From assembly GCA_036925085.1 (NCBI GenBank), contig JAUPFP010000047.1, positions 186,001-250,000 of the forward strand: 64,000 bases of DNA, read 5' to 3'. Position numbers and translations under genes: made by a program. How positions within the stretch are numbered: position 1 is the stretch's first letter; each line of letters starts with the position of its first letter. The DNA comes from Brachycybe producta (Eukaryota > Arthropoda > Diplopoda > Playtdesmida > Andrognathidae). The notes beneath the pieces were generated by a model. It was not told the DNA's origin, did not search any database, and was given only the letters and a program-made list of their open reading frames with translations. Of this stretch, positions 1 to 36,199 are shown piece after piece.

Positions 1-269
1 GATTAGTATATTTTTATTTGGATATATATACTCTAGCAATATAGATATTAACAAAATTTATTAATTAAAGTATTCATTTTTATTTATCATAGTATCAAGT
101 CAAACATAAAATAGATTTTATTTCAGAAGTATAAATATATTTTATCCTATTGCATAACATAAATAAATTACGATTTTTTTGTTTTAACTATTTAAAGATA
201 CAATTTCTAATGAGACTACATATTAAATATTTATAAATCGATGGTCTTGTTTTTTTGTAAAGAAATATT

Positions 270-1722
270 TTATAGTATAATCCACTTTCTAAAACGTCTT
301 CCTGTGGGTTGACCAGGGCGAGAAGGAATAATTGATTGAGTACCAGCAGATGGCCTGAAATAAATAGATTTCAATTATTATACTATGGATTTCATATTTA
401 TAAATAAAATAATTATGCTGATACTTACAACATCAATTCTTTTGGATGGAACTTCCAGGGTCTGTAGTTTGAATTACCAGATTCATGATAATAGCTAAAT
501 TAAAAATTGATTACTCATATTAAAAATTATTAATGATAAAACATATGATAAAATTATTTATTTAAATTGGCTTACTTACGCATTAACTAAATACCATGGA
601 TCTTTATTAGCTCTGAAAAATATTTCAATATAATTTTAGCTTGAATTGGCTTGAATTAACTATTAAAATGTTTATTGATTACTATTAAGTATTTAAATTA
701 ATGTAAATGGAAATAAAACCATTAAATTTATTTAACATAATCAAGAGAAGAAAGTGTTTATGGTGTTTATAATGAAGTTTGAAGATAATTTAAAATTTTT
801 TAAATTGTACTATTTACCCTGCTGCGTCTTGACCACCAGCTGTATCATGCGCTGGGCCACTGTAAATGTTAAAATTTTTGCAATTATGGCAACCATTATT
901 TTAAGTTATTATTATAGCTCAAGTCCTCAACTATAAATTATCTTTAAATAGTTGCTTAATAATTATAAAATCAGCAATTTTTAAAATGTATTAATTATTA
1001 TAAACAAATATTTATTCCACATTCTTACCCAGCACGACGGTCCCAAAACCTAAAAAAAACATTCTTTGTTAATTTATTTAAAATATGCAGACAGTGTCGG
1101 AGGTAACTAATTAGCATTAATTACCCTCTTTGTTTTCTCAAATTACTGCTTTCATTACCATCTGCAGTCTTTTGGTTCTTCTTAAAAAAATAAAAATGTA
1201 AAAGTTAACAAAAAAAAAGCACGGTCAACGTTTTTTTTTTTTCTTAAATTAATTCTGAATTTTAGAAATTACATTCAATTTGTTATAATTGGGGTCACTT
1301 AAAACATGTTGAGATTGTCCACCAATGTCATCGCTTTGAGCTAACTGAGCATCACTGTAAAACATAATATACATTAATTTGTTAATTTTATTTTAGGCAG
1401 TATTTTAATGTAACATAAATTAATATACTTACTTCAGATTTTCTTGTCTTGCAAATCTTAATCCTAATTCAGGAAACATATCTGAGTTTTTGTTGGTATA
1501 CTTCATAGAATTTCTATGTAAATTGGTTGAAATTCGGTCTGAGGCTCGACTTATTTTTGGACCAATGAAATCAATGTTATGCATGTTATTATAGTTCATA
1601 TCATTTCCTCCACTGGAGAATTCCTTATCGAATGGCAATGCTTCTGCATTATTTAATGAATTGCATAAAACATCTGTTTGAGCCAAAAATAAAACTATGA
1701 ATCCCAGTAGAATTGCCATCAT
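270..1722 (-). CDS. secreted cysteine-free protein, 8 exons, unknown family
   Basis: I assembled eight exons on the minus strand: 1722-1433, 1354-1273, 1180-1125, 1049-1029, 859-818, 612-580, 494-429 and 354-270. All have GT...AG borders, and the sum is 675 nt (224 residues plus TAA). All introns are phase 2 except intron 2, which is phase 0. The N-terminus (MMAILLGFIVLFLAQ) is a clear signal peptide ending near residue 20. The mature part has no cysteine, is rich in Asn, Gly, Ser and Gln, and ends in a basic tail (RPGQPTGRRFRKW). The exons are very small (21-85 nt after the first), as in extended secreted proteins. The phase-2 intron after exon 1 matches the neighbouring Cys-framework genes, which suggests shared origin or exon exchange. 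I recognise no domain; function unknown. The consistent phase makes the model fairly safe, but the start could be either of the first two Met codons. Confidence 0.72.
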
Positions 1723-4159
1723 TAAATAATTTTCGTTGTTAATAGAACCTATTTAAAAAAAAGCTATTAATTGAATATCAGAAAATTATAACCATAAATA
1801 TATTATTGAAAACAACTCAAACAATGAATATGTTAAATATGATGACAAAAATTACTTACCACCTTACAAAATTGCAGTTATTTTTTAAACCAAAAGTTTG
1901 GTCAATTATTAATCGTTTATGAAAACAAACTAAGAAGTGAAGTCTGATGTTATAACGTAAATGTAATTATAGAAATAATAATATGGAAAATGTAATTCTA
2001 GTGTTTCATGAAATTTTCTAAATTAAATTTTAAACATATTTTAATTGGTTAATTCAAGTTTGATATTTATTTCAGAAAGAGCTTAAATATCATCTTCACA
2101 TTTGTTACCTAGCTTATTTAGTTCGCTATATTATTTAAGTATGCATTTCCTTGAGGAATGCTACTTGACGGAAATGCTTAATGTTTCAAACAATCATATT
2201 GCATTCAAGTGAAGAATAAACTGATATAATTAATAACTCACACATAATTAATTATTTAGTTATATTAATATAAGCCTAAAGTCTAGCTTACACTATCTAA
2301 TAATTTAAATGCGTTTAGATTTGTTATACTTGTATTTTAAGAACATAGAAGCAAACACCGAATTCTATCTGTTTAGTTAATAATACTGTATCTCTTATAT
2401 TTTACAGTTTAAGTACATTTTGAATCTGAATATACGTATATTAAGTAATAAAAGTAAATTTTATTTTTTAGTATTGGTAAAAGTTTAATTAGACTCTTAA
2501 GAAAGAGTGGGGCAATAAAAGACATAGGTCAAAAGGGAACTCTGGGTGTTACATTATTTTATTTTAATGCTGATTTAGCTTTTACCTTTTATTTGTGTAT
2601 ACCAATATGGTATCTCATTTGAACACATTTTAAACTGTGTATGTATTTATTTTAAAACAACTTATTGCAACAAATGTAATGATATTACTCAGAAAGCGAA
2701 ATTTAACAGATCTTTAAAGTGTGGTAAAATAATTTTGAGTAACCATCAGTATTTTAAATTGCCATTGAATTTGAATGCAACAATAAACACAACATTTTTC
2801 TGCAAACTATATAAAAAAATTTAAAATGTGACATGTGGTCACAAAAAGGAGAACATATTTTTAACATATCTAGCCAGATACACATTATTTAAAATGATGA
2901 TAGCGTTAATCTTTTTACAAAAGGTTGCTAGTAATCAAGCAACTTTGTTCCTCATTATAGCGAAAATCATAAAATTGAGATAATTGATGTATTATTCCAT
3001 AACTTTCATATTGTGTTGTACACTAGTCAACTGCAGTCATAAAAATGATATAATTAAATTTTACAAGCAGGCAGAAGCCTCCCGAAATTGTGTGACCCCC
3101 AGAAGCATATCTAAACTGGAAGGTTCCCGAGAACCTCTTGAAAGGGGTACTTAATCAATTTTTTTTGTAAATTCAAAAAAAGTTGTTAATTTTTGTGGAT
3201 CGCTTCGCTGTCGCTAGAAAAAAAATATTTTGGGGGTGGAGAGTGAAGTGCTGACGCGGTGTATGCCCACTTAGGATTTTGTAACCAGTACGTGCCTGAT
3301 TTGTCCTATAGTAATGCTTCGTAATTTGCCTATGTGCCTTATGAGTTTGATTTAACAATGAATCATAGAATACGATAGATTATAACAGGTGAACATTTCA
3401 AAATACCCTCTAGTATGTGAGAGAATCATCTAACATAATATGTGATTTAGTAAACTTCTTGGTTCACTTATAGAACAAAGTACCCCATCATATGTGGCTT
3501 ATAACTTCTCATTCTTTTGAAACATAAGCATTTCCCAAACACTTTTATTTATTTAATTCCAGTATTAGCTTTGTGTGAAAAAAAAAAACAAATTGAAAAA
3601 GTGTCAAAATTATTACTCCCAGTAGAAAAGCTCAAAATTTATTGTCAAGTTTTTAAAATCAAATTTAAAAATAAAGTAATGGCTGGAAGAACGCTGTAAC
3701 TGACAAAAAAGTAAAATTCGTTTTTCAATGGAAAATGGTTGTACCTGACTTGTTTTTTGTGCTAAACTCATAGATGTCACCTTCTGCCACTTAGACTAAA
3801 AACAGGTGTAAAATAAGATTACTTCACAGCAGCTAATGTGGAACAACAATTGTTTATGGCATTTTCAAAAAAATTTAAAATGGTCAGTTACGCGACTGTT
3901 CCAGCCAAGACTTCAATTATAATTATGAAATAGACAAAATGCAATACATAATGAAATAAACTCCAAACAATTATAGCATATACATTTTATACATTTTATT
4001 ATATGTAATGTATCTAGATATAACAACTTTTCTTTCTAAATAAGATCTCTAGCATGTTTAACATTTAATAGTTATACAAAGAAAATATTAGCAATATAAC
4101 TGCTGATAAAATGATTTTTAAAATAGTTAATCTAGAGTTACAAATAACAATCAGTCATT
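1723..4159. other. intergenic, no gene seen
   Basis: This AT-rich stretch lies between two minus-strand genes. It contains only short ORFs without splice or signal-peptide support. A patch at about 3065-3340 is more GC-rich than its surroundings and may be an old repeat; I see no terminal repeats. Confidence 0.5.
3995..4000 (-). terminator. probable polyadenylation signal
   Basis: An AATAAA on the minus strand lies about 160 nt beyond the stop codon of the polyproline gene at 4160-5204. Confidence 0.4.
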
Positions 4160-5204
4160 CTATGCTTTGGTTTTTTCACAACAAAGATTAGTTAATTCAC
4201 AGCATTCTGGAATGTCAGTATTTTCAAAATAACATCTCAAGATGCAATGTACCAGTGACAGTGGACTATTGTTCCTCTTCTTCCTATTTGAAAATAAAGT
4301 TTATTTTAATACAGATTAACTGTTTAACTTTTTTTTTAAAAAAAAGTTATTTTCTTTTAAGACGCATGAAAATAAAGTTTATATCAATGGTAATCTACTA
4401 CTACCTGAGCCGTTGATAAGTAGATTCATCCTGCGAACATCTTGGGCAAGGAGGGCAATTTGCGGAAGAGCAAGAATTGGTAGTACCTTCTAGATCGGAA
4501 TTTATATTTTGCGACTCCTCTTCTTCTATTCCTTCTTCTGGTTCCCTAATTTGATTAATGGGCCTTTCGCCCAAATGCCTAGATAGAAAATTTTGTTCAT
4601 CCAAATGTGGATTTGCCATATGTGGACTGCTTTCTGAACAACCAGAACATGACTGGCAACCAAATGGCATTAATGGTAACATAGGAAACATTGGAAGAAA
4701 TTGTGGACATGGCCGCTGTGGTTGCGGTTCCGGTGGCATTCGTCGAGCAGCAAGAGTATTTGGCCTTCTAGTTGTAGTGGTGGTTGTGGTTGTTGTTGGT
4801 CTTGGTCTGTTACACATGGGAAAACATGGCATCATTGGAAGACAAGGTTGACCACATGGAGGTGGTGGTGGTGGTGGCGGTGGTGGTGGTGGAGGAGGTG
4901 GAAGGCGTCGAGATTGTACCATAGGACGTGGCGGAGGAGGTGGTTCTTGGCATAAACCCGATAACTCGCAACAACCTGGAGATCTTCTATTTTTTCTACA
5001 TTTCTTGGTTAAGAAATCGTTGTCTTTATCAGACATTTTATTGGTTCTAAATTCCAGCTTCATTGGAATTTCTTTTTCAACTTCATTGTACTCGTAATTT
5101 TCATCATTCATGTCATTACTAAATTGATTGAAATTTTCATAATTTGGCTGTGCTAATGCAGAAGCAATCATCAATGTGGTGATGTAAACTGGCCAACAAA
5201 ACAT
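4160..5204 (-). CDS. secreted polyproline/polythreonine protein with C-terminal Cys-framework module
   Basis: There are two exons, 5204-4405 and 4283-4160, joined in phase 2 (donor GTAGTA, acceptor after a T/A-rich tract). They give 924 nt, 307 residues. I chose the Met at 5204, not the upstream in-frame Met at 5249, because it opens a clean signal peptide (MFCWPVYITTLMIASALA, then Gln-Pro). The mature order is: acidic Asn-rich segment; a half module C-x8-CC-x5-C; a run of about 15 prolines; Cys/Met/Pro-rich stretch; nine threonines; another Pro/Met/Cys region; acidic segment; Cys-Pro repeats. Exon 2 then carries C-x3-C-x9-CC-x5-CC near the C-terminus, the framework of the neighbouring small peptides. 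Low-complexity Pro and Thr blocks suggest an extracellular, possibly O-glycosylated or matrix/cuticle-like product. Family unknown; function not inferred further. Confidence 0.72.
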
Positions 5205-5856
5205 TGTGATTTGATTGACTATTAATTGTTTTGAATAAAATATATACAAATTAAAATGTCACATAAGCGTATGATTTAGATTAGAAACTTAAAATGGACA
5301 ACAGTTTCAGTTTGTTGCTATTTTGTTGTGGTTTTATATCACTTCCAAACTAAATCCTAAGAAAGCAATTAGTGCTTGTCACAATGTGACATGAAAGATT
5401 GTTAAACTATATTATAAAAATATGCTGATATTAAATCACCACATTCTCAATTTCATTGAAATTTTCTCTAATCAATGAAATTGTGAGCTGTTACTATTAA
5501 TCTACTTAATAACAGTATTATTATCTGAAATAAAATTAGTGATATTTAATATGTGCATTACATTTTATAACGTTTGCATGATGAAAATAATAATAAAAAT
5601 GAAAATAAAAACACTTAGTTAATAAACACTTAGGTGTTAATTATTTATCAATTAATGATATTTATTTGAAAACTATATTCTAACAATGTTTGTTCATAAA
5701 TTCAAAACATCTACCAACAGTCAGACATTTTGTGGATTTTATATATATATATATTGTAAAATCTACCTTACAGAAACATATATGTATTTGAGTTAAATTA
5801 TTTGCATAACCTATTTGTACTAATATTGTATTTCCCATCTGAAAAATAGTAACATT

Positions 5857-6559
5857 ATGATTGTCATATATTTTTTTGTGGCTGTACTTTTTAATTTTAC
5901 CATAGTAGAAAGAAGTGGTCAAAAAAAAAATCTTTGTGAATGTAAATTTACAAACACATTCAATGAAACTTGCTGTGACTTTTTTGGATTGTGTTGCAAA
6001 GTTTACTTGTATGTAATTAATATTAATTTTATAAATTCATTGTGTGATGAGGAAACAAAATGCTTTGCATATTTTGCAACACTTTTTCTTCCTTACATTT
6101 TTTTTTCAGAAATGACTCACAGAATGTTATAAAGGAATCCAAACCTAGATCTTGGAATAAATATAATTATGTTGTATAGACAAATATTTACTATTTTTTT
6201 GTTATATTTGATTTATTTTATTGTTCTTTCTTTTTGTATATTGTAATCAAATTACAATACCTACAAAGACATTACAAGACTTCCTCAAGAACAACATAAC
6301 TGGACCAGCACAAGCATCCAAACAAGGGCCCACAACTCAATCCGAAGTCAGGCATGAAAATACAACCCAAATTGTCAACATTCAACAGATCAATAAAATT
6401 GAAATTAAAGATCAAATATTTAAAGAAACGCTCATATCAAATAAAACATATAAACCTCAAGTGTTTAAAATTCGTTACACAGAACCTCCACTTGCTAAAA
6501 ATTCTTCAAATTACAGTTTATTTCCACAAATAAATTATAATGCAACAATATACCGTTAA
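5857..6559 (+). CDS. small secreted Cys-framework protein with Asn/Thr-rich tail
   Basis: This is the only plus-strand member of the cluster, divergent from the polyproline gene and convergent with the next. Exon 1 (5857-6008) encodes a signal peptide (MIVIYFFVAVLFNF...) and the framework C-x-C-x9-CC-x5-CC, ending in phase 2 at a GTATGT donor. Exon 2 starts at 6110 after a long T tract. It can end at 6170 (weak donor GTTGTA) and join exon 3 at 6269-6559 in phase 0, giving 504 nt and 167 residues. If the weak splice is not used, the protein stops at TAG 6177-6179. The exon 3 tail has several N-x-S/T sites, fitting a secreted product. Exon 1 and its join to exon 2 are well supported; the second intron is uncertain. 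Function unknown. Confidence 0.6.
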
Positions 6560-6793
6560 ATATACAGTATTTTAAAATAATGTATTAATAATGTATAGCA
6601 ATACATATTTTGCTCGTAGTTATTGTTTTTTGTTAAAAAATATTTAAAACATTTCAAATTTATTTTCAAAACAACTTTTATTCACATAGATTTTGTCTTT
6701 ACACCTATGGAATAAATTTGTAATTGTCTTTTACCTATGTTTCTAATATTTTCACATTGGTATTCGTTTTTTACGTGAATCCACAGTCGCATT

Positions 6794-7366
6794 TTAGGAA
6801 TCCTTGTCGTCCTCATCTGTATTAGTTTCTTTTTCTTTATTCTGCATAATAAATTTAAATTAAATTACAAATTTTTTCCACAAGTGGATATAGTAGTCAT
6901 TGGCAAGCATGCAATTATCTATTAATTATAAATTACTAACTTTGCCATGATCATTTTTTTCCTTTCCTTCCGTAAGTAATATTGGACGATCTACCAATCT
7001 TGTTGGCCTGTAAACAATTAAAACAATAATTAGCATATCTTTTGCAATTATAGGATTTTCATTAATTATGTGTCTTCTATTTAAAAAAAGTAGTTCAACT
7101 TACTCTGGACAGCAAAAACCAAATAGAGAGCAACAGATTGAATTTTCCGCACCATACATTCGGCATTTGCACCATGGCCAAAATGTATTCAATAAAAACC
7201 TGATGTTGTTTAGGTGGTAATTTGGTTTTAACCAGTTTGGTACATTTAGAAGAATATTGTCTTTAAATTGTTCTTGAGCATAACAATAATAATGACCATG
7301 TAGAAGAACTATTGTGACAATCGTAATTGAGATTGAAGTAAACGTTTTTGTCATAAGATTATTCAT
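6794..7366 (-). CDS. small secreted Cys-framework peptide (paralog A)
   Basis: Three exons: 7366-7104, 7007-6941 and 6841-6794. Introns are phase 2 (GTAAGT) and phase 0 (GTTAGT); total 378 nt, 125 residues. The N-terminus has a hydrophobic signal (SISITIVTIVLLHGHYYCYA) followed by a linker with W-L-K-P. The module C-x-C-x9-CC-x5-CC then sits at the end of exon 1 and ends CCPE. Exons 2 and 3 encode a short charged, Asp/Glu/Lys-rich tail without cysteine. The segment W-C-(K/R)-C-R-M-Y-G-(A/T)-E-N is shared almost exactly with the adjacent gene at 7885-8303, so the two are a recent tandem pair. An AATAAA on the minus strand lies at 6682-6677. Six cysteines predict three disulfides, as in toxin-, defence- or signalling-type peptides; which of these it is cannot be read from the sequence. 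Confidence 0.75.
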
Positions 7367-7884
7367 TGTTTCAGAAGTACTCCTATTGTTTGTAAATGTA
7401 TGTAAATGAAACTAGTATGTTGCTAAAACTTCAAACTTTTGTTATAAGTTTCTTTTTAATAGAGTGCATTAGACTGTGTTGCTACAAATTTGGTCTAATT
7501 TCATTTTTGCAAAACATTTTGGAATTTTCATCAACATAGGCCTACATAAATATATTTAAGAAGATATTTAATACTAACTGTTAACAATGATTTTAGTATT
7601 GTATTATATCTAATTATCATTAATGCATGCTTGAATCAAATTCAATTTGTAAATTAGCATAAATAAAAACATGATCAGTGATTACTTTAATTACAAATAA
7701 CACAGTTATGTTGGTTATTTAATAAGAGATGCAAGACAAGTGAATTTAATTAATATTTATTATATCTACTACATTTTAAAATTGCTTTCATTTTAAGCAC
7801 AAAAGTAATGCAATTACAAAAGGAATAATAAATTTTAAAAAAAATTAAAATTCCGATTTGTTTATACATTATTATAATGGATTT

Positions 7885-8303
7885 TTAAAACAGATCTACA
7901 GATTTTAACATGGTGCCTGCATCATTTGAAGAACGTCTACGTGCTTGTGGATTTATTGCTACTTGACCTGGAATAATATTTGAAGTAATTTGTTTTCTGC
8001 GAGAGAATGTTAAACAAAATTAATTAAACTAGCCATTGCAAATATAAATACTGTACATGTACTATCTTACTTTGGGCAACAGTAGTGCAATAAAAAACAG
8101 CATCCTGTATTTTCAGTTCCATACATGCGACATCTGCACCATGGTAACATGTTGAACATGGTAGCATTTATGCCAGTAATCCAAAACTCGGGAGTTAGCC
8201 AATCTGGCAAATCAGCCAAAATATTGAAACCATCAATTTGAATATTTAGAATGGATAAAATAACCATGAATTTGACAAAATAGATGAATTTTTGAGTAGC
8301 CAT
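7885..8303 (-). CDS. small secreted Cys-framework peptide (paralog B)
   Basis: Two exons, 8303-8071 and 7996-7885, joined in phase 2 (GTAAGA donor), give 345 nt and 114 residues. The Met at 8303 was chosen because it starts a better signal peptide (MATQKFIYFVKFMVILSILN) than the in-frame Met 16 codons upstream. The mature part runs through a D-L-P-D-W-L-T-P segment comparable with N-V-P-N-W-L-K-P in the neighbour. It then has C-x-C-x9-CC-x5-CC ending CCPK at the exon end. Exon 2 is a cysteine-free tail with a dibasic/tribasic run (ARRRSS), a possible processing site. It is the tandem duplicate of 6794-7366. A minus-strand AATAAA lies at 7761-7756. Function unknown. Confidence 0.75.
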
Positions 8304-8698
8304 CTTTTTCCCTAGTACAATATTCATAAATGGTAAAGAAAAACAAAACAAATGTAAGCCATAATTTTTGAAGTTCTGTAATCTGATTTGAAACTTAAAT
8401 CTTAATTGTTACCTGAATGAATATTTCCTTTTTTTATTTTAAACTTAATTTAAAATGTTCCTCTAAATAATTAAAAAAAATCACTAACTAATAATTTAAG
8501 TGCAAATTCAAATCGTAAGTGAAGAACAACTGCTAAGCAATTATTGATGCTGATATAAAAGTTAAGATTACCATTTGACTTTGTGTCAAACTTCATCCAT
8601 AGTGTCAAAATACACTAAATGGCAATTGTAGCCCCCAATTACTAATAATACACTCGTACAATGTTTACCTGGTGAAAACTGATCATTTGCAATGGTTA

Positions 8699-8896
8699 AT
8701 AATGTTAACAATTAATAGTTCTTTTTTATTTATTTTATGTACGGTGCATTACGAGCCATATTTTGTGAAACTTAAGTTAAATTATTTCAGCAAATGCTGT
8801 TGCACAGATGCAATCGATTCGTCAAAGCGCTTCAGAAAACTACACAACAGATTAAGCCAACAACAATTTTTTTTAGAAAAGCAAATAAATTTCTAA
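8699..8896 (+). other. weak ORF with hydrophobic start and CCC
   Basis: An ATG at 8699 opens a short frame beginning MLTINSSFLFILCTVHYEP, signal-like, with three adjacent cysteines midway and a Gln/Lys-rich end. It lies between cluster members but lacks the CC-x5-CC framework, and I find no convincing introns. It may be a decayed or unrelated peptide gene, or chance. Confidence 0.2.
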
Positions 8897-9296
8897 TTTT
8901 TCTCGTAACATGCTATAATGTAAAAAAAAGTCTGAACTCCTAAGCTATAAAAAAATATCGCAAAATTTGTCTTGTCAAATGGAACCGCAACAAAAAAATA
9001 CGTACAGGCTTGTGATTATGTTAACTTGAAGGTTGATTATGGAAATTTTAGTTTGCTATTTTACATTTTATTACTATTTTTAGGATTTGTGAACACTATT
9101 TATTTAACAAATTACAAATGCGAAATGTCACCAAATCAATTTATTTCTTAAATCAACAAAACAACTTTAAATATATCACAAGCATACAACAAATCAACTA
9201 AAAATGTACAATATTACATATACGTATCATCTTGAATAGTTTTAGAGAAATTCCAATTCATTATTAAAATGAGCTTTAGTTACATTTTTATTACAT

Positions 9297-9733
9297 TTAA
9301 TCATCCATGCCTAACCAACTTTCCAAGTCTTTTCCTATTCCTCCTTCGTAAGGCTTATTGACATGTTTATGTCCATAAAATTCTCCAACACTGAAATAAT
9401 AAAAGTTTCTAAATACTGTAATTATAACATCAAAGTAAAATAACGTAAACTCTTAGTAAAACATATATGACATGTTGGTCATTTAAATTGTGTTACAATG
9501 AACATCATCATTATTTTTTTTACAAACATTTACTTCAATGAATGTGATTATAAGAAATGGTCCATTGTACATTTTGTAATTTCTTACCCGCAACAATTTC
9601 CAGTGAGTTTACAGCAAATGTTAATGCGAAAACCTATTATTTCACACAGCACGCAAAAAGAGTTGGTTTGTTCAATAGACCCAAGAAGAATCATAAGAAT
9701 TAGAGCAGATGTATAAATTGCTTCTGAAACCAT
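9297..9733 (-). CDS. small secreted Cys-framework peptide
   Basis: Two exons, 9733-9588 and 9390-9297, joined in phase 2 (GTAAGA donor), give 240 nt and 79 residues. The first 25 residues are a signal peptide (MVSEAIYTSALILMILLGS...). The framework C-x2-C-x9-CC-x5-CC follows at residues 27-48 and ends one codon before the splice, exactly as in the other members. The exon 2 tail is Gly/His/Lys-rich and ends acidic (LGMDD). Only the cysteines and spacing are conserved with the neighbours; the loops differ almost completely. That pattern is typical of fast-evolving secreted peptides such as toxins, antimicrobials and recognition ligands, without proving any of these. Confidence 0.72.
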
Positions 9734-10281
9734 TTTGATGTTCTTTATGTAAATGAAGTAATCTTTTTCAGAATTTTTTAAAAAATAAATCTACAAAAAA
9801 TAAAGCAAATAATAAGTATAGTATCAGCATAATCAAAAATCATATTAAACAAAATTTACTTAAGTATAGTGCAGTAATAGAATATGACAAAGTTTGCGAA
9901 TCTTCATATATTTTCTATTTGAGATGTAAAATTCATTGAGTGGGTCTCAATCATTAAAAAAAATTAAAGATTATCTCATGAATAAAAGTTATGAAATGTT
10001 GCATATAGATTGAGTTGACTATGAAATACTGAGGAATTTTGTTGTTGTGTCAATTTAATTGATATCTTAGCCATTAAATTCACAGCACAATGGTACTACC
10101 TTTATGCATCATGTAACAAATATTATCAAAGGTCATGTTCAATTTATAAAGATCCTAAAATATGCTCAATAAAAGACGCTCGCTCTACTGTACATAATAT
10201 TTTATGAACAATACATTATAAACTTAATAATATTGCTGCAAACATTACAATAAACATTTGTTTAGGTATAATTATGGTGAC
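9734..10281. other. intergenic, no gene seen
   Basis: AT-rich spacer upstream of the 9297-9733 gene. It would hold that gene's promoter, but I see no clear TATA box or initiator. Confidence 0.4.
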
Positions 10282-10509
10282 AGCTCCAAAGCCACTTGCC
10301 CTAAAACACATCCTCTAAAAACCATTTGCCCTAAAGACACTTCCTCTAAAGCCATTTGTCCTAAGGACACATCCTCTAAAGCCATTTGTCCTAAAGATTC
10401 ATCCTCTAAAGCCATTTGTCCTAAAAATTCATCTTCTAAAGCCATTTGTCTTAAAGATTCATCCTCTAAAGCCATTTGTCCTAAAGATTCATCTTCTAAA
10501 GCCATTTGC
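10282..10509 (+). repeat. 30-bp minisatellite, about 7.5 units
   Basis: Tandem 30-bp units (consensus begins ATTTGTCCTAAAGATTCATC and ends CTAAAGCC) repeat with a few substitutions and no length change. As 30 is a multiple of three, both strands stay open. The plus strand reads ten-residue repeats of the type CPKDSSSKAI within a frame 10258-10563; the minus strand reads MALEDESLGQ repeats. There is no signal peptide or proper start (the plus frame opens with TTG), so I treat it as non-coding unless it is an exon of an unseen gene. Confidence 0.8.
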
Positions 10510-10968
10510 GATAAATGTTATTTTTTTAATTCTAAGCTAAATCGGTGGTTGCTTTTTTTCTAGCAACAACTTATAAAATACATGTAGCCATTTATGAATC
10601 AGTTATGATACATTACACGTGATGCTTTTTGCAGTTTATTCTATTTCAATCATTCGTACCAATCGTCTGCTGCTTCTACTACATACCGTTTTAGCAGTTT
10701 TTCTGCTGAAATAACCAAAGTAATTTTTGTCATTCATCTACATTAGTTGAACTACACTTGACCTCATAAATAATTCAAATTTTTCAAATACATTGAAAGA
10801 ACATATATAATGCTTATAAAAATATGATCCATCATTTTGCTTGTGTTTTGATCAAAAACAGAAATTTCAATAGGCATTGTTACAAGGAAGAATTGTTCTT
10901 TAAATTTAAAAAAAAAACTAGATTAACAATAATATAATTAATATTAATACTGTTTATTTTATTTTAAG

Positions 10969-11921
10969 TTAAAGCATAGGTACAGCATGAAGAGTATAAG
11001 TTGGAATTGATTGTCTGGATTGATCTTTCGTCAATGGAACCACATACGTTGATTCAACTTTTGGTTTATCATTTGCCACTTTGAGATATCGTTTTGAGAT
11101 TTGGCTTGTTGCATTTGTAACAGTGGAGCTCCTATCAATAGCCAATTCTGCTGGATTAGTGACGTCCAATTCACTGACATGGCCTCGCTCTGGTTGATAA
11201 ACCATATACCACTTTCCATCAGAACTATGCGATGGGACTTGCAATGATCTAGAACTGATGAGTTGAGATGAATCCTGCAAAAAAAAAGAACAGACGCATT
11301 TTAAATTATTTAAAATATTAAATCAAAAGACAAATGTGTCTATACTGGTTACTAACTATATATTGAGCAGGTGGTGGTACTTCAAAAAGAGGATCTGTCG
11401 AAGGAAACACATCTGGAGTCATTGGAATAGGTTTCGCAATTGGAATCATAATCATCCCAGACGACCTTTGAGTAGTTCTCGCAGGTTCTTCCCAAAGTTG
11501 CTCAGAGGGGCGAAGATAATAACCGAGCTGAAATGGATAATCAGGCCAACACCGTACAAAGTATCATGATAGCATGTTTATTTCATGAGCTGCTGCAACC
11601 ACAATTTCACTTAATTCTTTAATTCTGTTTATTTTTTTGTTGATTAATTTAGATGACGTTATAATATATTCAAAAAGCACTCTGTATTAACATAGAGTAA
11701 ATTTTTTTAACAAAACTTTAGTTTAAAGTTGTGTATTTTGTAATATAAAAATATAAAATAAAATTATCATTTAATACTTACTTTTTGCAGCATTTTTGAT
11801 GTCGAAAACAACAATATTTGCTAAGAAGTGAATTTCTATTCAAACAGCGACAAAGGAGTTGTGGTTGAGTGCATTGCAATGACATCAACAGAATAACAAC
11901 AAAAATTGTCCAATTTTGCAT
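10969..11921 (-). CDS. secreted Cys-framework protein with long tail; frame conflict at intron 1
   Basis: Exon 1 (11921-11782) encodes a signal peptide (MQNWTIFVVILLMSLQC) and the framework C-x-C-x10-CC-x5-CC, ending in phase 2 at GTAAGT like its paralogs. Exon 2 (11527-11357, 171 nt) and exon 3 (11274-10969, stop TAA) are clearly coding in phase 0, Pro- and Ser/Thr-rich, without cysteine. The phase-2 donor does not fit the phase-0 acceptor. A direct join would stop after about 25 codons. Three explanations are possible: a 25-nt micro-exon at 11624-11600 that restores the frame but has weak splice signals; one base missing from the AAAAA run before the donor; or a real frame break. Exons 2 and 3 might also belong to a different transcript. 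Without the conflict the protein would be about 205 residues. Exon 1 is firmly a family member; the rest is provisional. Confidence 0.6.
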
Positions 11922-16054: not shown

Positions 16055-17806
16055 ATGGCTACCTCACACGACAATACGGGGTCCCTGTCTGATCACCAGG
16101 GTTCGCACGAAGATCTGTTGGAAGTACCCGTGACTACTGATGTGACACCACCGCCGCGGCCGACTGGGGCCGAGTTTGACCACCTGTCACAACAAGTGGC
16201 TGCACTCTCGACTCGTATGTCTCAGTTCATAGACGACCGATTCACGCCGAATCGACCGACTACACCCCGGCGGACAACACGCACACACCGACTTCGCGAC
16301 GATGACTCGGACGCCTCTTCAGCCCCCTATGTTGGCTACAGAGAGCGTCACGATCGTTACGAAAGACATTACACACCGCACACACGTCATCTACCGCGTA
16401 ACCCTGACTGGCAACAACAAGGGCAGTCAGATGATCCGCGTCACAGAGATGAGCGTGCGGAAATACCGATCACGACACGTGCTGATTCTCCTCACTCGCT
16501 TGTCCGGGTTGCACGTAGCGGTCGCCGCTCGACACCCCCGGAACAACAGCCTAGCCAAGGAGCGACACAAGGCACTTCAGTTTACGCGCCACGTTTTCCA
16601 CCGCAAGGGGTAGGTCTGATGCCGGCTGGAATGTCAAACGTCCAGGATGGCATCTATCGACCAACCCCCAGAGAACCCTCCGTGGAAGAATTCAATAAGA
16701 AATACAGTGGTCGCCACCCAGCCGACTCAATCCAAAAATTCAACGGATTGACAGGTTTCCGTCCCTTCCTGGAAGAATTCGAGGAAGTGGCACACCTGTA
16801 CGGTTGGAAAGACCACCACAAGGAGGAATACATCACGGGGTGTTTCACTGGGGCCGCCCGCACGTGGCTGAGTAAACTGAGGTATGAGCTTCAGGACATT
16901 CCTTGGCCAGCACTGAGAGTACAGATGGTAGATACGTTCGGGAAGCCGAACGAACTGGCCATCTTGGAGAAGAAGTATACAGAGATGCTCCAGAAGGAAG
17001 GTGAGAGTACACAAGCTTTCATCTGGGAGTTTATGATACTCGGCGACCGAGTTTACCCGCAACTTGACGATCAGCTGCGTATAAGCCAGTTGCGCCGCGC
17101 TCTACATCCCACCATACAGAACGCCGCGCACCACGCATCTACGACGTCGTTCAAGGACTTCGCAAATGCCGTCCTCAATATGGAGGTGGTCTTGCTGTCC
17201 TTGGATAAATGGCCGACGGAACCAAAACCCGCAGCTGATTCACAGTCGGGTAAAGGAGCATCGAAGACCGACCAGGAGCCGGCGGCAACCGCCAGCCCTA
17301 AAGACAAAACACACCGGTCTAGGCATGATAAAAAGCCTAGTCAGACTGCTGCCACCAATTCAAACCGACACTCTGCAGCGGACACCCAACCGGAGACCAC
17401 TCGCACGTTCGACAAGAGTAAGTCGACGTGTTATAATTGTGGCAAATTGGGGCATTTCGTCCGTGAGTGTCGGCAACCAAAGAAGAAGGTTGCAATCAAG
17501 CAGTTTGGTGAGCCGGTTACCGACTATGACATCAAAGGAGAGGTGCCTGAAACGGATATCATCACCGAAGACGGCATTGAGTTTGCACTGATACGAGTGG
17601 CGGGACAAATCCGCCGGATTCCTCTTCCAGCAGCAGACTCAGCCGCCGGAGCACCTCCTCCTGACACATCCGACAATGACAGCTCTGACCACTCTGAGGA
17701 CATACCAATCAAAGTGCTCGACCGAGCTCCTGCACACAAATGGACCTCGGGCGAGCCGATCAAGTGGCCACCCACGCTGTCAAGAAACCAAACGCGACGA
17801 AAATAA
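16055..17806 (+). CDS. gag: retrotransposon Gag polyprotein with CCHC zinc knuckle
   Basis: The 583-residue frame starts at ATG in a good context (ATCATGG). Residues 1-220 are hydrophilic, Arg/Thr/Pro-rich and probably disordered. Residues about 230-375 match the retrotransposon gag (capsid) pattern: FLEEFEEVAHLYGW, then FTGAARTWLSKL and a helical region ending near LNMEVVLLS. A Lys/Ser/Thr-rich linker leads to a nucleocapsid knuckle C-x2-C-x4-H-x4-C with Cys459, Cys462, His467 and Cys472. After the knuckle there are about 110 acidic/Pro-rich residues and a stop. No D-S/T-G protease motif follows, and no frameshift into pol is visible. The protein should coat and package the element RNA into particles; polymerase must come from elsewhere. 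The frame is intact, fitting a recently active element. Confidence 0.92.
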   Translation: MATSHDNTGSLSDHQGSHEDLLEVPVTTDVTPPPRPTGAEFDHLSQQVAALSTRMSQFIDDRFTPNRPTTPRRTTRTHRLRDDDSDASSAPYVGYRERHDRYERHYTPHTRHLPRNPDWQQQGQSDDPRHRDERAEIPITTRADSPHSLVRVARSGRRSTPPEQQPSQGATQGTSVYAPRFPPQGVGLMPAGMSNVQDGIYRPTPREPSVEEFNKKYSGRHPADSIQKFNGLTGFRPFLEEFEEVAHLYGWKDHHKEEYITGCFTGAARTWLSKLRYELQDIPWPALRVQMVDTFGKPNELAILEKKYTEMLQKEGESTQAFIWEFMILGDRVYPQLDDQLRISQLRRALHPTIQNAAHHASTTSFKDFANAVLNMEVVLLSLDKWPTEPKPAADSQSGKGASKTDQEPAATASPKDKTHRSRHDKKPSQTAATNSNRHSAADTQPETTRTFDKSKSTCYNCGKLGHFVRECRQPKKKVAIKQFGEPVTDYDIKGEVPETDIITEDGIEFALIRVAGQIRRIPLPAADSAAGAPPPDTSDNDSSDHSEDIPIKVLDRAPAHKWTSGEPIKWPPTLSRNQTRRK

Positions 17807-19240: not shown

Positions 19241-21418
19241 ATGCCAGGTAGAGGCTCATGGAGAGGAGGCAGAATGATGTCTGCCTCTTCTAGTGAAGAT
19301 GAGACGGAGAGTGGAACGGCGGGGACCGCTGAACCCCTCTCTCAATCTACCTGCCAGCTACAAAGGGCGGGCGCCGCCAGTGCGCCAATAACAAGAAGAG
19401 AGTCGCCAAACACAATAGATAGGCGCCGCACCTCCTCCGAACCGGAGAATTTTCACCGGCGTGGGGAGAAGCGCCTAAAAGCAAGCTTCAAGCGACCTGC
19501 CAATGTCGGGCGCGAAGGGAAGCCTGCTGCTCCAAGCAGCATCGTCTCCTTCGACGTCACGACATCAAAACACTACTGGGAGGAGCGGGAAGACCGCATC
19601 GATATCAACCTCATGGCATGGGGGGTTAACCAGGCGTTCCGCGATAGCATCGCGCCTGGTCAACCCATTCCGGGTGGAGCTGAAGCAAGAGGGAAGCGTG
19701 GGGGAGGTGGATCTGTGCCCTCCCCCCTCGAAGACCTCCACTTGGAGATGCAGAGGGAGGCTGCCCTTCGCCAGGCAGCCAGAGATAAAAAGGAAGGGGA
19801 GGACAATCTGGCGTACCTCCGTGCGGTTTGCGCCCGCCTTGTCGAGCTGGGCTTACCGTGTACGGCGCACCTCCCGAAGGAGGAGCTCCTGCGAATCGAG
19901 GCCCGACTCCAAGAAGCCGCCCGAGTTACGTCATCGGCCACGTCATCACCTCCATCCTCAAACTCGCCAGCAACCCTGACAACTGGCCTCTCCACATCTC
20001 CTTCTCCACCCATAACGCCACCAGAGCCTTTCCAACACTGCTCACCGGTGCCGTCAATCACTCCGCCGCCTCCTCCTCATACACCATTATCGTCACCACC
20101 AACCTCCCGATGTGCCACGCCTCCACGCAGCGAGGCCGCCACACCAACTCCGACTCCAAAGCTACCTTCCATAGTGGTGGTTCCCCAACCTGTTCGTGTT
20201 CAGGTTCCCACTGGGGCTCGCCCCAAGGAGCCTCAACAGTCCTACAGGGGCCACCACTCTCCTCGAGACTCTCTTCAACGGCCACAACCACGTCGCTCTT
20301 CGCCACGTGGTTCCCATCTTTCGCCCCGACGCCGACCCGACGGAAGAAGTCAGCAGGAACAACGTGGTTCCTCTGGACGCGGCCCTCCGCCGCGTAATAA
20401 CTTCGACCCAAGGGTCAGGCAAGACCTACAGGATCACCGAGTCCAACTGGACCGCGACCATCGCTATGAAACTCGGGGCCCTCCTACTTGGGTCCCGCGT
20501 CGCTCTCCTCCTCCGCCACCTCCGGGCCGCCCTTCTGGACAACCTACGCCTACACCTTTGATGCCGCCACCTTCCGCAGAGCGTGCCGCGTTCTTGAAAA
20601 AACAGAAGGCCATCACAAACCTTCTGCAAGACGTCATGCGACAGGGAGGTGACCCCATGGAAGCACTGGGCCGTGCACCAGGAAGTGCCAAGCCACTGGA
20701 GGCGCTGAGCAGGAAGTCGGCATCGAAGCGACTACGTCAGCGGGCCCGCGATATGGCCCGGTCCGCCTTGCGCCATGCCAGGCCTATCACGGGCGCATCA
20801 GTTTCTTTGGAACCTGCGGCTCCAACACCAGCCCGACCAGCCGCACCGCCCACTGTACCCCATGCCGGGGCTACTCTGGGGCGGTTACCGCTGGATCATC
20901 CGTTCCGTGCAGCCACCTCCGGCGAGAGGTTGCTCAACAATCGGTGGGTCACTTGGCAGCGCGAAGTGCGCTCTGCCAACACCCTTTACATAGGACACTT
21001 CTCTTTGGAGGAAGGGTTTCCCCGTCTGGACCTCCCTCCCCGGGAGCGATATGTCGTGGGACTCTCCCGCCTAACAAGTGTCCTCATCACCATCGTCTTC
21101 CCAAGAAGACGGATTGTTGAAACCACCAGTTTCGCCGGAGATGCCATCGATGAAGCCACGGAAGCCCTTTTGGGAGCTTTCGTCAACTCCGTCTTTAGAC
21201 TGCCAGCTGGACAGACGTTCCGTACCAGCCGTCACTACATTCCGGAACCGGATCCTCGTTACCGAATCGCCGTCTTATGGGACGCCGCTTGGGCTACACT
21301 GTACAACAAGCGGTCCTCCCGCAAGATTATCGGGGACCGGGACATCTTCAATATCTTCCACCGGGATCTACCTGACGACCAGGGACAATGGCTGTCTGCC
21401 GCATCCAGCTACCGATGA
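19241..21418 (+). CDS. retroelement second ORF, unknown protein (725 aa)
   Basis: The ATG at 19241 opens an intact 725-codon frame, much more GC-rich than the host. Residues 1-90 are Ser/Arg/Gly-rich. Residues about 100-240 hold a Glu/Leu/Arg helical segment (LHLEMQREAALRQAARDKKE). Residues about 240-470 are a Pro/Ser/Thr/Arg low-complexity region with polyproline. Residues about 475-540 are basic (KRLRQRARDMARSALRHARP). The last 180 residues look folded (WVTWQREVRSANTLYIGHF, then RYVVGLSRLTSVLITIVFP, and DPRYRIAVLWDAAWATLY). There is no reverse transcriptase, integrase, protease or transmembrane segment, so it is neither pol nor a typical env. A nucleic-acid-binding accessory protein, or a gene captured from host or helper, is possible. 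Overlapping ORFs in other frames (for example 19828-20397) are by-products of high GC. Intactness implies selection or recency. Confidence 0.8.
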   Translation: MPGRGSWRGGRMMSASSSEDETESGTAGTAEPLSQSTCQLQRAGAASAPITRRESPNTIDRRRTSSEPENFHRRGEKRLKASFKRPANVGREGKPAAPSSIVSFDVTTSKHYWEEREDRIDINLMAWGVNQAFRDSIAPGQPIPGGAEARGKRGGGGSVPSPLEDLHLEMQREAALRQAARDKKEGEDNLAYLRAVCARLVELGLPCTAHLPKEELLRIEARLQEAARVTSSATSSPPSSNSPATLTTGLSTSPSPPITPPEPFQHCSPVPSITPPPPPHTPLSSPPTSRCATPPRSEAATPTPTPKLPSIVVVPQPVRVQVPTGARPKEPQQSYRGHHSPRDSLQRPQPRRSSPRGSHLSPRRRPDGRSQQEQRGSSGRGPPPRNNFDPRVRQDLQDHRVQLDRDHRYETRGPPTWVPRRSPPPPPPGRPSGQPTPTPLMPPPSAERAAFLKKQKAITNLLQDVMRQGGDPMEALGRAPGSAKPLEALSRKSASKRLRQRARDMARSALRHARPITGASVSLEPAAPTPARPAAPPTVPHAGATLGRLPLDHPFRAATSGERLLNNRWVTWQREVRSANTLYIGHFSLEEGFPRLDLPPRERYVVGLSRLTSVLITIVFPRRRIVETTSFAGDAIDEATEALLGAFVNSVFRLPAGQTFRTSRHYIPEPDPRYRIAVLWDAAWATLYNKRSSRKIIGDRDIFNIFHRDLPDDQGQWLSAASSYR

Positions 21419-29283: not shown

Positions 29284-32200
29284 ATGGTTTCTATTGTGAA
29301 TATATCAGTCACCTACTTGGTGACCGCGTTTTTCATTTGCTTTAGTCATCGATGTGTCATCGGTAGGTGAATGTTCTTGCTTTTTTCATTTACGTTGTAA
29401 TTGGTTGTGAAAGTTCTCACCAATTATTTAACTGATAAGTTAGTTGATAAAAAAGCTAAAAAAAATAACAATTTCTTATTTATTTATTTTGACATATTTT
29501 TTTTTTTTGCTTTCAAGCTCATATAGTAAAATTCTTCTTGATCTCCAATGACATGAATGTGTCAGTTGTTTAAGCACGGTTACAATGTGGACATAGTATT
29601 AGAATTTTGATTATTTGAGTTTATATTAAACATAAACATAAATTTAATTTTGAAAAACTAGAATAGTAAAGGCCTTGCTAGATGAACAGAACTCTGAAAA
29701 AAACTTCTGAAAGTTACTATTACTCTTATGTAATTCAGCGCCATCTAGCTACAAATTGTGACTTTTTTCTCTTGTTTTCCGTTATGCATTTTTAGAGTTC
29801 TATTTCAATTTTCTGAAATAATGTTTGCAATATTATTTCAGAGTTTTTGTATTTTAAATTCTGAAATGATAGTTTTTAGATAATACTTTGACCTTGATTC
29901 AGTTATCCATCATACCATTGGCAGCCTATTATTCAATTTGTTAAGTCGAATTTATGCTTTTAGATGTTTTTTCAGAGATCTTTTTATGGAGCTCTAGAAA
30001 GGCATTAAAAGAACGGACTTAACAGTTTTTCATAATATGTTATGTATGTAAATGATTAATTTATGGTGAGAAGAAAAATAAGAAACTTCGACCAATTTAA
30101 AGTGTTGTAATATGCCTGGACCCCGTCCATGCGGTTCTTTGCTTTGACTGTCTCTTTGTTGGGTGGCTGGTCTCAGACCAGCGGTTGAGTTCGGATTGTG
30201 CGACGCTCCACATGCTCCTCGCTCGGGCTTTGTGACCAGCCGGGTGATTCAGGTCTACTGGTTGATCTAGATGCACTGCCCTTGGTCGGGCCTCCGCTTC
30301 TAGTTGGAGTCGGACTTCCTGGCATTGTTGATTCTGGTTGTTTTTGTGGTTTCCGTGTAGATGGGACTCCCGAGTTCCCACAATTTAAAGAAACAGCGAT
30401 GACTACACCTTCCAGAGGTGTCCATAAAGAAAAAGACTTTTCTTTGGCGATTAACTAGTTTATTTTATACGATAATGCGATACATTATAAAGCGATATAA
30501 AATGATAAAATCTTCTACTTGGAAAATATTCTAAGTCCAGAGGCTGCTTTGGCTTAGGGTATTTTCATACACAATTCTCTCTCCTGAGGAGGGAAACATT
30601 CTGTCCCCGCATATACTCTGCCTACTGTCCTCTCGAGGATACGTCGCGTGCTTGTTTTGTTACTTTGGCCCTTTGGAGGGGCCACTTGTGAACAGGGGTT
30701 GCCCACAGGTCGATCTGACCAATGGCGATCTCTGGTCCCAAAATATTTCCTTTTTTGGAACACATTTCTCTGAAATATGTAAATGATTTTGTAGAAATTA
30801 TCTGGGCTTGTCCAGTGTCACTGGACATGAGAAAAAGTAATCTTCTCTTTAGTGCGGTCGAAAAAGCGTCGACCGATCTCGGCCAGTTGGGACCCAGCAG
30901 AGTGCGTTGGCAACCCGGGCCCACTTTCGGCCACTGTGGGCAAAACTGGGCAATCGTGGTCAAAACTGGTAAAAAAGTTACGCCTCCGGGGCATAAACCC
31001 CGGGAGCATCTATGACTTCTTTAATTGCGTCCATATGTGCCGGCAAAGAACTCTTTTGCTTTACGGCACCTGTCTTAGGGCCATCCTGGCACCATGGGGG
31101 CCAAACTCAAAGAGGCATGGTAAGTGATATCCTCACACATGTGTGTGCCGACACATGTGCAAGGGGTGCAAATAACTTTGTCATGTGTTTAATAATCTAT
31201 AATTAATAACCTTTCAATTTATTTTTAAGCTTATGAAATAACCTAAGTTGATCTCTATATGGATGGGTGAGAGCTCAAGTAGACCATCATATTTTTTTTT
31301 TCATTTCATCGGTTTGATGCAGTACTAATATAAAAGTGACTACTTTTCGGACCAAGTCTATAATTCATTATTTGGCCACTAGTTGCAAGCTTGGAGTTAA
31401 AATGCTTCATAGAATTAATTATGGATTAATAACTAAGCTTTGTTTCTGAAAATATGATATGATGGAGTTGATCTATTTGTTTTTGCTATATGTGCATTTG
31501 TGCATCAAGAACTTCTAGGCCAACCCTGCGTATCTCACTATGACATAGCCTAAATGTGTACATTTGAATGTTTAAAGCATTGCTTATTCCTTTTTCTTTT
31601 TTTCTAGGAAGACATGTGTTCAAATTCTACAGTTGTTGCGATTATAACAATGCGAATCTTGTAAAGATTTTACAATTGCTAAGTGATGTCGAACAAAAAG
31701 ACATGGCAGCATGTATGGCTTTCTGTACACTTCAAGGGACCACATTGCTGATGATGACACCCAACAACAAATGCTATTGTACAGATCTTGACACCACAAG
31801 CCAAATGATAAACAATCGAATCGAAGTCAAAACACCCGAAGACTGCGACTTAAAAAAGTTTGCTATTGTTATGATGAGAGGTAAGTAGTGTAAACCTAGC
31901 CACTACTACCATCTACATATTTTAACAGAACTCGAGATTTAGGCACCTTCACATTAATTTACATTGCTGGTAATTTATTCCTAAAGTTATTAGAAAATAT
32001 AATTCACTTAGGAAAAAAAATGCATTGTTTAACAAGATTCGTTATTTTTTTTCGGGCAACGCATTTTGCCATCTACCCAAGAGCACATTAAAAAACGCCT
32101 CAGGAGAGCTCAACTTGCCGCAGAAGTCCCAAAAAGCTTGGAAAAGCACAAGGATTCAAGAATTTTTAAAATTCAAAAAAATGACTCAAAAGCCTATTTT

Positions 32201-35200: not shown

Positions 35201-36199
35201 GTATATATAATCTGTTTCTGTTATGTTTTCAGATCTGTATTTGGGTTGTTTCAATCAAAACAACAAAAACAAACAACTGAATGTGTCTGTGACCGTTCCA
35301 AAAGGCTTGAACATGAGTCAGTCAAAGTGCATATTGCATTGTTTAAAACAAGGATACCATTTGGCTGGTATCACCAATGGTAACATCTGTTTTTGCGACG
35401 ATAACATCGGAAATGTTTACGATATTGCCTGGCAAACAAATTGCAGTTGTACATCTACAAAGTGTGTTTCAGAGGGAAAAGTCAAAAATAAAACTGGTGT
35501 AAAAACAACAATTGAAATTTATGCTTTAGGTAAGTTGTAGGTCTGTACTTTTAATGCTTTTTTTTTTCTTATTTCACTTTTCAATTTTTCTCGTCAAAAA
35601 TTCTCATATATAGTCATTACATAGTAAGCTCCCCTTAATTGTGACTATTTAAGGCGAATCACTTTAGCTGGGGTAAACACCTCTCGAACTCTTGTTTATT
35701 CCGTCTTCCAGGTGCAAAATGAAACGATTTTTGTTTTTAGAAACTAGAAGGTTATCTAAATCACATTAAGGATATTTTCATGTTGATATCTCTCAAAATA
35801 AGCTTTTCATGTGAGTTTTAAAATGACCCAAGTTTATTTTGAAAGATGTTAACATGAAAGTGAAAGTACACTTAAGTTATTGAGCTACCCTTCCAGTTTC
35901 TAAAGCACTTTCTAGTTTCTGTTAATTTTGCTCCTTGAGAGACAGAATAATCAGAGTTTGAAAATCATCTGTTACTAAACCATCAAAAATTAGTTGGAAT
36001 AAGTTCAAGAAAACATAATATTTTTTAAAAACAATTATTGGCCTAATCAGCTTCTTTTTATAATTATTATTATTTGTATTTTATTTATTGGTTTAATTCT
36101 CTTATATACTATTAGCATTAATTCTTTCCCCCCATTGTCATAGCGGCAGATAGTTCTCTGTATCACGGTTTCGGGACACACCTCGGAGGTTCTTTCTAG
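29284..36199 (+). CDS. secreted protein with four tandem WSC domains
   Basis: Exons: 29284-29362 (signal peptide, MVSIVNISVTYLVTAFFICF), 31608-31880, 32247-32549, 33727-34008, 35233-35529 and a candidate terminal exon 36144-36199. Total 1290 nt, 429 residues. Every intron is phase 1 and each internal exon (91, 101, 94 and 99 codons) holds one cysteine-rich WSC domain, a classic shuffled module. Domains 3 and 4 are clearest (G-C-Y/F-N...C...C...AG(V/I)..G..C(Y/F)C); domain 3 has ECYCGNN and C-D-M-P-C-T-G-N...C-G-G. WSC domains bind carbohydrate in fungal wall sensors and occur in Kremen and polycystin in animals. No membrane segment follows, so the product is probably extracellular and glycan-binding. 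An alternative short end at 34061-34083 gives 319 residues, with AATAAA at about 34231. The first exon and the 3' end are inferred from splice phase. Confidence 0.8.
30106..31150 (-). mobile_element. minus-strand LTR-retroelement fragment inside WSC intron 1
   Basis: This is a GC-rich island in AT-rich intron DNA. On the minus strand it runs from LTR-like sequence through a possible primer site (TGGGAACTCGGGAG at about 30380) to a short Pro/Ser/Arg-rich ORF starting MPGSPTPTRSGGP at about 30326, like a gag N-terminus, which stops early. No second LTR is seen. Boundaries are approximate. Confidence 0.4.
32090..32200. repeat. dispersed repeat, copy 1 (copy 2 at about 57130-57235)
   Basis: The segment AAAAGCTTGGAAAAGCACAA and about 25 bases after it are nearly identical to the sequence at 57171-57215, and the flanks are alignable. 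It lies just upstream of the second WSC exon. Confidence 0.65.
34311..34841. mobile_element. 531-bp MITE with TTAA ends
   Basis: TTAAGGTGGCTGAATAGATA at the left is repeated inverted at the right (TATCTATTCAGCCACCTTAA), matching over about 24 bases. TTAA at both borders fits piggyBac-type insertion. The interior has a long imperfect palindrome (about 34505-34640) and no ORF. It sits between the two alternative 3' ends of the WSC gene. Confidence 0.75.
35648..35990. mobile_element. palindromic TTAA MITE family, copy in WSC gene
   Basis: The left arm (AAACTAGAAGGTTATC, then TTTTCATGTTGATATC) and right arm (TTTGAAAGATGTTAACATG, then GAGCTACCCTTCCAG) are inverted copies. It starts with TTTAAGG and ends near CCATC. 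Confidence 0.65.

Follow-up and report, generated by a model that had tools for sequence, protein, structure and literature searches.

To which family of peptides, and to which function, should a dense group of small cysteine-rich genes in a millipede genome be assigned? This question is raised by a stretch of 64,000 nucleotides (nt) from Brachycybe producta (hereafter, the window), which corresponds to positions 186,001-250,000 of contig JAUPFP010000047.1 (C47) in a genome assembly of 295 Mb and 442 contigs. An initial annotation of the window had tied the spacing of its repeated six-cysteine module, C-x(1-3)-C-x(9-10)-CC-x5-CC, to no named family; we found that this spacing is nearly that of the cysteine-rich domain of penaeidins. 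We tentatively interpret the genes as a millipede tandem family of predicted secreted peptides that have a penaeidin-like framework, may form a disulfide-stapled helix and probably act in host defence as antimicrobials, and we give this reading as a whole somewhat less than an even chance of being correct. Positions below are those of the window unless preceded by a contig name.

A cluster of six-cysteine modules in 51 kb

The six modules of the window lie at 4178-4246 (-), 5935-5997 (+), 7109-7171 (-), 8076-8138 (-), 9590-9655 (-) and 11787-11852 (-), with the places and spacing given by the initial annotation. A slightly looser version of the pattern matches nothing else in the 64-kb window and gave 0 matches in 100 block-shuffled windows. 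The tandem arrangement noted earlier also holds, and it extends further than had been described. When C47:1-250,000 was scanned with this looser pattern, nine occurrences were found, all inside 147,132-197,852 and eight of them on the minus strand. The cluster reaches 39 kb upstream of the window, and its 51 kb (C47:146,639-197,921) hold 11 loci, namely nine six-cysteine modules, one four-cysteine variant and one pseudogene. We also searched the whole genome with seven protein queries from six genes (C, 147k, E, two of A, F and 171k; B, D and 169k were not among them). These queries returned only members on C47, including the four-cysteine gene near 171k, and weak matches, and thus no module outside C47. 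The weak matches lie on C143, C3 (two), C120, C50, C8 (two) and C21, and none of these eight loci has the six-cysteine or the C-C-CC pattern in any frame.

Nine genes (A, B, C, D, E, F, 147k, 169k and 171k) were modelled by splicing at GT-AG sites by hand, and their signal peptides and mature-chain cuts were set by eye and not by a predictor, so that exon structure and secretion are predictions from sequence (Table 1 gives those of the window). All nine models have complete frames ending in a stop, introns of 72-301 nt and a first intron in phase 2. In eight of them (all except A), the predicted exon 1 consists of a signal-like hydrophobic start and the module, the donor lies 2-11 nt past the last module cysteine, and the tail is free of cysteines. 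One of the eight, 169k (C47:169,343-169,690), has the four-cysteine form C-x3-C-x9-CC with a phase-2 donor immediately after it. For the five window genes B-F, the models agree with the exon arrangement described in the initial annotation. Gene A departs from the annotation's description of a module behind a signal peptide, since its module is C-terminal and lies in the last exon behind a Pro-rich region. In A, the degenerate module of exon 1 is followed by a Pro-rich and Thr-rich region with C-x3-C motifs, and 46 Pro and 16 Arg are found among the 191 residues between its two modules; a better-looking acceptor would start its exon 2 at 4283. The tail of 147k is rich in Gly, Ser and Tyr (15, 10 and 8 of 63). 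Judged by eye, clear low-complexity parts occur in two of the nine genes, and the remainder have short unrelated tails.

Table 1. Predicted exons of the module genes and the duplicated region, in window coordinates.
Feature	Position	Strand	Content	Basis
Duplicated region	47..9458		blocks duplicated from C47:172,430-180,056	blastn blocks, 72-83% identity
Gene A, exon 2	4160..4274	-	C-terminal module C-x3-C-x9-CC-x5-CC, then EKTKA and stop	pattern and hand model
Gene A, exon 1	4405..5204	-	signal-like start, acidic spacer, degenerate four-cysteine module C-x8-CC-x5-C (4950-5000)	copy A' at C47:176,157-176,948
Gene B, exon 1	5857..6008	+	signal-like start and module C-x1-C-x9-CC-x5-CC; phase-2 donor 11 nt past module	pattern and hand model
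Gene B, exon 2	6110..6179	+	cysteine-free tail; longer open frame 6221-6559 is a possible alternative exon	hand model
Gene C, exon 3	6794..6841	-	acidic tail and stop	hand model
Gene C, exon 2	6941..7007	-	cysteine-free tail	hand model
Gene C, exon 1	7104..7366	-	signal-like start, linker, module C-x1-C-x9-CC-x5-CC	pattern and hand model
Gene D, exon 2	7885..7996	-	cysteine-free basic tail	hand model
Gene D, exon 1	8071..8303	-	signal-like start, linker, module C-x1-C-x9-CC-x5-CC; paralogue of C	pattern and hand model
Gene E, exon 2	9297..9390	-	tail starting (G)VGEFY	hand model
Gene E, exon 1	9588..9733	-	signal-like start and module C-x2-C-x9-CC-x5-CC	pattern and hand model; weak Pfam Penaeidin match
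Gene F, candidate exon 2	11452..11527	-	uncertain; longer open frame there in another phase	hand model
Gene F, exon 1	11782..11921	-	signal-like start and module C-x1-C-x10-CC-x5-CC, module net charge +5	pattern and hand model

Part of the cluster is a segmental duplication. The duplicated blocks hold intergenic DNA and portions of genes G, A and D, and the modules of B, C and E lie outside every block. The six cysteines of A exon 2 are retained in its copy A', and D has a pseudogene copy, D', at about C47:178,778-179,030. The duplication, the pseudogene and the four-cysteine forms record the birth and death of copies. Gene G, which extends from 1429-1722 on to about 300 and has its duplicate at C47:172,430-174,407, begins with a signal-like start and is without a cysteine module; by eye it has several very small exons, whose splice sites are mostly retained in both copies. 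The ratio of nonsynonymous to synonymous substitution rates (dN/dS) in its exon 1 is 0.77 (93 codons).

The residues between the module cysteines differ widely, as had been observed: C and D share 7 of 15 non-cysteine positions, and the other 27 of 28 pairs share at most four. Conservation is also poor on either side of the module, and that of the signal regions does not exceed that of the module. The rate of this change could be tested on A and A' only, which are under purifying selection (dN/dS 0.32 for exon 1 and 0.06 for the Pro-rich core). For the module exon, dN/dS is 0.26, from 17 changes of which 7 are synonymous and 10 nonsynonymous, so that no positive selection is seen in this pair. 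Two points affect the reading of these values: dS in the Pro-rich core is also low, so that gene conversion is possible, and a stop in A' precedes the place of A's donor, so that the module exon of A' may be cut off.

Resemblance to the penaeidins

All nine six-cysteine modules share with the penaeidins the cysteine order, the first spacing C-x(1-3)-C and the x5 spacing, but the x10 of the penaeidins occurs in F only. Penaeidin-3a (PDB 1ueo) and penaeidin-4d have C-x10-CC-x5-CC; the first cysteine of penaeidin-3a precedes the printed stretch, and we take its first spacing to be x3. Penaeidin-1 is given as C-x1-C-x10-CC-x5-CC and MjPen-II as C-x2-C-x10-CC-x5-CC (PMC11678341), and therefore the first spacing varies both in penaeidins and in the millipede modules. 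Gene A also follows the penaeidin order of signal, Pro-rich part and C-terminal module, although it is acidic overall.

We then asked how far the similarity goes beyond the cysteines. In a residue test of eight modules against penaeidins, in which the cysteines were held fixed, the x5 loop resembles the penaeidins beyond composition (p = 0.0035), and the module of A alone gave p = 0.039; when four penaeidins were compared in turn with the remaining three, p ranged from 0 to 0.007. A profile comparison spanning both CC pairs, 17 columns in all, returned a probability of 62% and an E-value of 7e-5. The hhalign score from hand-set alignments, 18.1, fell to 12.3 when the x5 spacing was broken. When the nine spliced proteins were scanned against Pfam, the Penaeidin family (PF05927) matched protein E over its module with an E-value of 0.044; for comparison, a penaeidin-3a fragment scores 37.7 bits against the same family. 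When E was searched against PDB sequences, penaeidin-3a came last of three matches (E-value 1.4), in an alignment that is in cysteine register save for the first cysteine. The better of two weak structure models, that of A's module, has two short helices, at 8-18 and 23-29. Taken together, what ties the modules to the penaeidins is the cysteine framework, the x5 loop and gene A's domain order, and we therefore call them penaeidin-type rather than penaeidins.

Other searches gave no further link. A Pfam scan of six exon frames found no match for them. In PDB searches, the A1 profile had no match and the modules of D and A found no penaeidin, and a penaeidin-1-like query had no match in the millipede genome, in a search that the tool itself rated uninformative. 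In the protein database, neither A2 (453 candidates) nor a conserved part of A (9 candidates) had a match at an E-value of 1 or below; since the candidates share only sampled 5-residue words, relatives may have been missed. Millipede proteins are represented in this database, but these searches brought up none related to the module proteins. Penaeidins, well-established immune peptides of shrimps, are described as restricted to penaeid shrimps (PMC11678341, PMC9409781), and a literature search ranked on penaeidin and myriapod terms contained no mention of penaeidins among the matches listed.

Several results weigh against the penaeidin-like host-defence reading. The residue test is not significant over all loops (combined p = 0.21 for the eight modules; loop 2 p = 0.83), and loop 2 has nine residues in eight of the nine six-cysteine modules and 10, as in penaeidins, in F only. 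The hhalign score of 18.1 was reached by 26 of 300 column-shuffled profiles. The best Penaeidin score, 15.0 bits, lies below the 25-bit cutoff, and the other eight proteins have no Penaeidin match, so that one of nine proteins reaches the family and no profile places all modules in it; three other members match unrelated Pfam families at similar E-values, and no match came from pieces of these proteins cut to module length. The structure prediction proposed in the initial annotation yielded AlphaFold models, but weak ones, with predicted local distance difference test (pLDDT) scores of 59.7 and 68.5, and Foldseek matched no chain with the better of them. In eight of the nine modelled genes, the module lies in exon 1 with no Pro-rich domain before it. 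The 500 nt upstream of 11 starts contain no kappa-B site, an absence that is uninformative given an expectation of 0.015, and fewer GATA sites than expected (5 versus 9.4). The purifying selection on A contrasts with published accounts of adaptive evolution in penaeidins (PMC11678341). Finally, net charge varies from -3 to +5 among the modules, and the predicted mature chains are positive in D (+2), 147k (+3), B (+4) and F (+9) but negative in C (-2), E (-2), 171k (-3), 169k (-3) and A (-5). Five of nine, including A, thus lack the cationic character of penaeidins, which weakens the immune reading.

Proposed host defence and competing explanations

Because the spacing of the six-cysteine core is nearly that of the penaeidin antibiotic peptides, we consider the millipede peptides likely to be host-defence peptides. 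Peptide defence is plausible in this host, as proteins of a millipede defensive gland have been assigned antimicrobial properties (PMC7523956), although the module peptides are not named in the relevant part of that source. Penaeidins have an affinity for chitin, a helix at their centre and disulfides 1-3, 2-5 and 4-6 (PMC10608444). If the millipede modules resemble them, three disulfides would join the same cysteines. The signal would send the peptide out of the cell, the module would adopt the shape of a disulfide-stapled helix and could bind microbial or chitinous surfaces, and the tail might tune target or localisation; gene A would carry a Pro-rich arm ahead of the module, as penaeidins do. 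Common descent with shrimp penaeidins is possible. A fuller scenario, in which the six-cysteine domain predates the myriapod/crustacean split, became in millipedes a swappable exon-1 cassette with many tails, and keeps its shrimp-like order in A, seems to us doubtful. A penaeidin-like framework in a millipede would either date the origin of penaeidins to the ancestor that crustaceans share with myriapods or present a striking case of two lineages converging on a single disulfide scaffold. The predicted cassette arrangement (a module, a phase-2 intron, then exchanged tails), together with the duplicates and the pseudogene, allows this question to be put to the test, and the small size of the modules makes their synthesis feasible.

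The best rival to host defence is a structural role in a gland or silk secretion, such as silk, glue, cuticle cement or egg coating, in which the module would serve as a cap, locked by disulfides, for cross-linking or ordering the disordered tails. The Pro-rich run of A and the Gly/Ser/Tyr-rich tail of 147k suit such a role, as do the low dN/dS values of A in its Pro-rich core and exon 1, the signal-bearing and module-free neighbour G that was duplicated along with the cluster, and the spinnerets or silk of several millipede orders (PMC3827447). However, clear low complexity is confined to those two of nine genes, and the framework is close to a known antimicrobial domain. We regard this role as rather unlikely. 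The framework may also be independent of penaeidins, and the peptides may be pheromonal, reproductive or hormonal signals built on a generic stable scaffold. Clustered, fast-diverging small secreted proteins are common among signalling and reproductive proteins, the non-cysteine residues have no significant overall penaeidin match, and two duplicated genes for multi-helix membrane proteins lie amid the module genes. This near-duplicate pair (C47:150,185-151,299 and 161,550-162,701) resembles arthropod chemoreceptors by eye, but three pieces scanned against Pfam had no match at an E-value of 0.1 or below, and thus the receptor identity is unproven. There is also no common processing site, since dibasic residues occur closely past the module in only D and 147k among the nine genes. 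We consider signalling distinctly improbable.

For venom or defensive toxins like those of cone snails and centipedes, the small size, predicted secretion, cysteine richness, tandem arrangement and divergence of the peptides would be fitting. In conotoxin superfamilies, however, signal regions are the more conserved part, whereas here they are no more conserved than the module, and no Pfam toxin family was matched. The order C-C-CC-CC opens conotoxin framework XI (PMC4278219), as the initial annotation had noted, and CC-CC is found in centipede SCUTX2/SLPTX27 (PMC4379518, PMC9266919). Against this, the host is a millipede, the gland of which is contrasted with the venomous forcipules of centipedes (PMC7523956), and no centipede family tabulated in PMC4379518 has the six-cysteine C-C-CC-CC order. 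For reasons of host, tabulated families and signal conservation, a venom function is disfavoured and, in our view, very unlikely. Among the venom, antimicrobial and recognition families suggested initially, the antimicrobial-like one is best supported. We give almost no credence to chance open frames or mis-joined exons: the second exons of F and B do have alternatives and the models are predictions, but no shuffled window gave the module, the nine models have consistent phases, and codons are conserved between A and A'.

Surroundings of the cluster and related frameworks

Several other features were noted around the module genes. A 30-bp tandem repeat, CTCTAAAGCCATTTGTCCTAAAGATTCATC, occurs at 10284-10508 and also at C47:79,956-80,949, 101,764-103,234 and 154,127-160,926. 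A GC-rich stretch (16055-17806 and 19241-21418) carries one gag-like frame, with Retrotrans_gag and zinc knuckle, and a further long frame that has no Pfam match. Three reading frames at 31568-35540 match the WSC domain, two of them above the Pfam cutoff. A conserved basic helix-loop-helix gene (HEN/NHLH-like) lies 49 kb upstream of the window at C47:136,631-137,080; its best named match, from Chamberlinius hualienensis, is identical at 89 of 126 residues (71%) over the whole length, and its top match reaches 78%.

Elsewhere in the assembly, COX1-like copies are present on nuclear-sized contigs (C1:12,697,416-12,698,753 and C17:4,027,703-4,029,047), and they probably represent mitochondrial DNA inserted into the nucleus or joins made in assembly. 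The mitochondrial contig has the order cox1-cox2-K-D, then atp6-cox3-G-nad3-A-R-N-S1-E-nad6-cob-S2, with no tRNA-Leu between cox1 and cox2; gene names besides cox1 and the tRNAs are our reading of the translations. Polydesmid millipedes are described as having E-nad6-cob-S2 (PMC8948135, PMC5240118), and the rest of the order differs here; nor is there an exact match to the gene order of Strigamia-like centipedes. The mitochondrial order and the match of the basic helix-loop-helix gene to the millipede Chamberlinius hualienensis speak against a mollusc or another marine invertebrate as the host and make a millipede most likely.

As for known peptide systems, a six-cysteine conotoxin framework, XVIII, also exists; its name was not found among the matches listed in our literature search. 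Conotoxin framework XI (I1 superfamily) has the same first six cysteines, but it has eight in all (C-C-CC-CC-C-C) and belongs to cone snails, whereas the millipede modules have six and no Pfam match to it. Centipede SCUTX2/SLPTX27 and plant lybatides, compared by cysteine pattern alone, share CC...CC near the C-terminus but have eight cysteines, the extra ones being N-terminal; lybatides fold as a disulfide-stapled helix (PMC5507927). Penaeidins (PF05927; PDB 1ueo, 1xv3) differ in their shrimp hosts, in being cationic where five of nine millipede mature chains are not, and in that eight of nine millipede genes place the module first with unrelated tails. They have in common with the millipede family the six-cysteine framework C-x(1-3)-C-x(9 or 10)-CC-x5-CC, a signal peptide (predicted here), a multigene organisation and, in gene A, a Pro-rich domain ahead of a C-terminal six-cysteine module.

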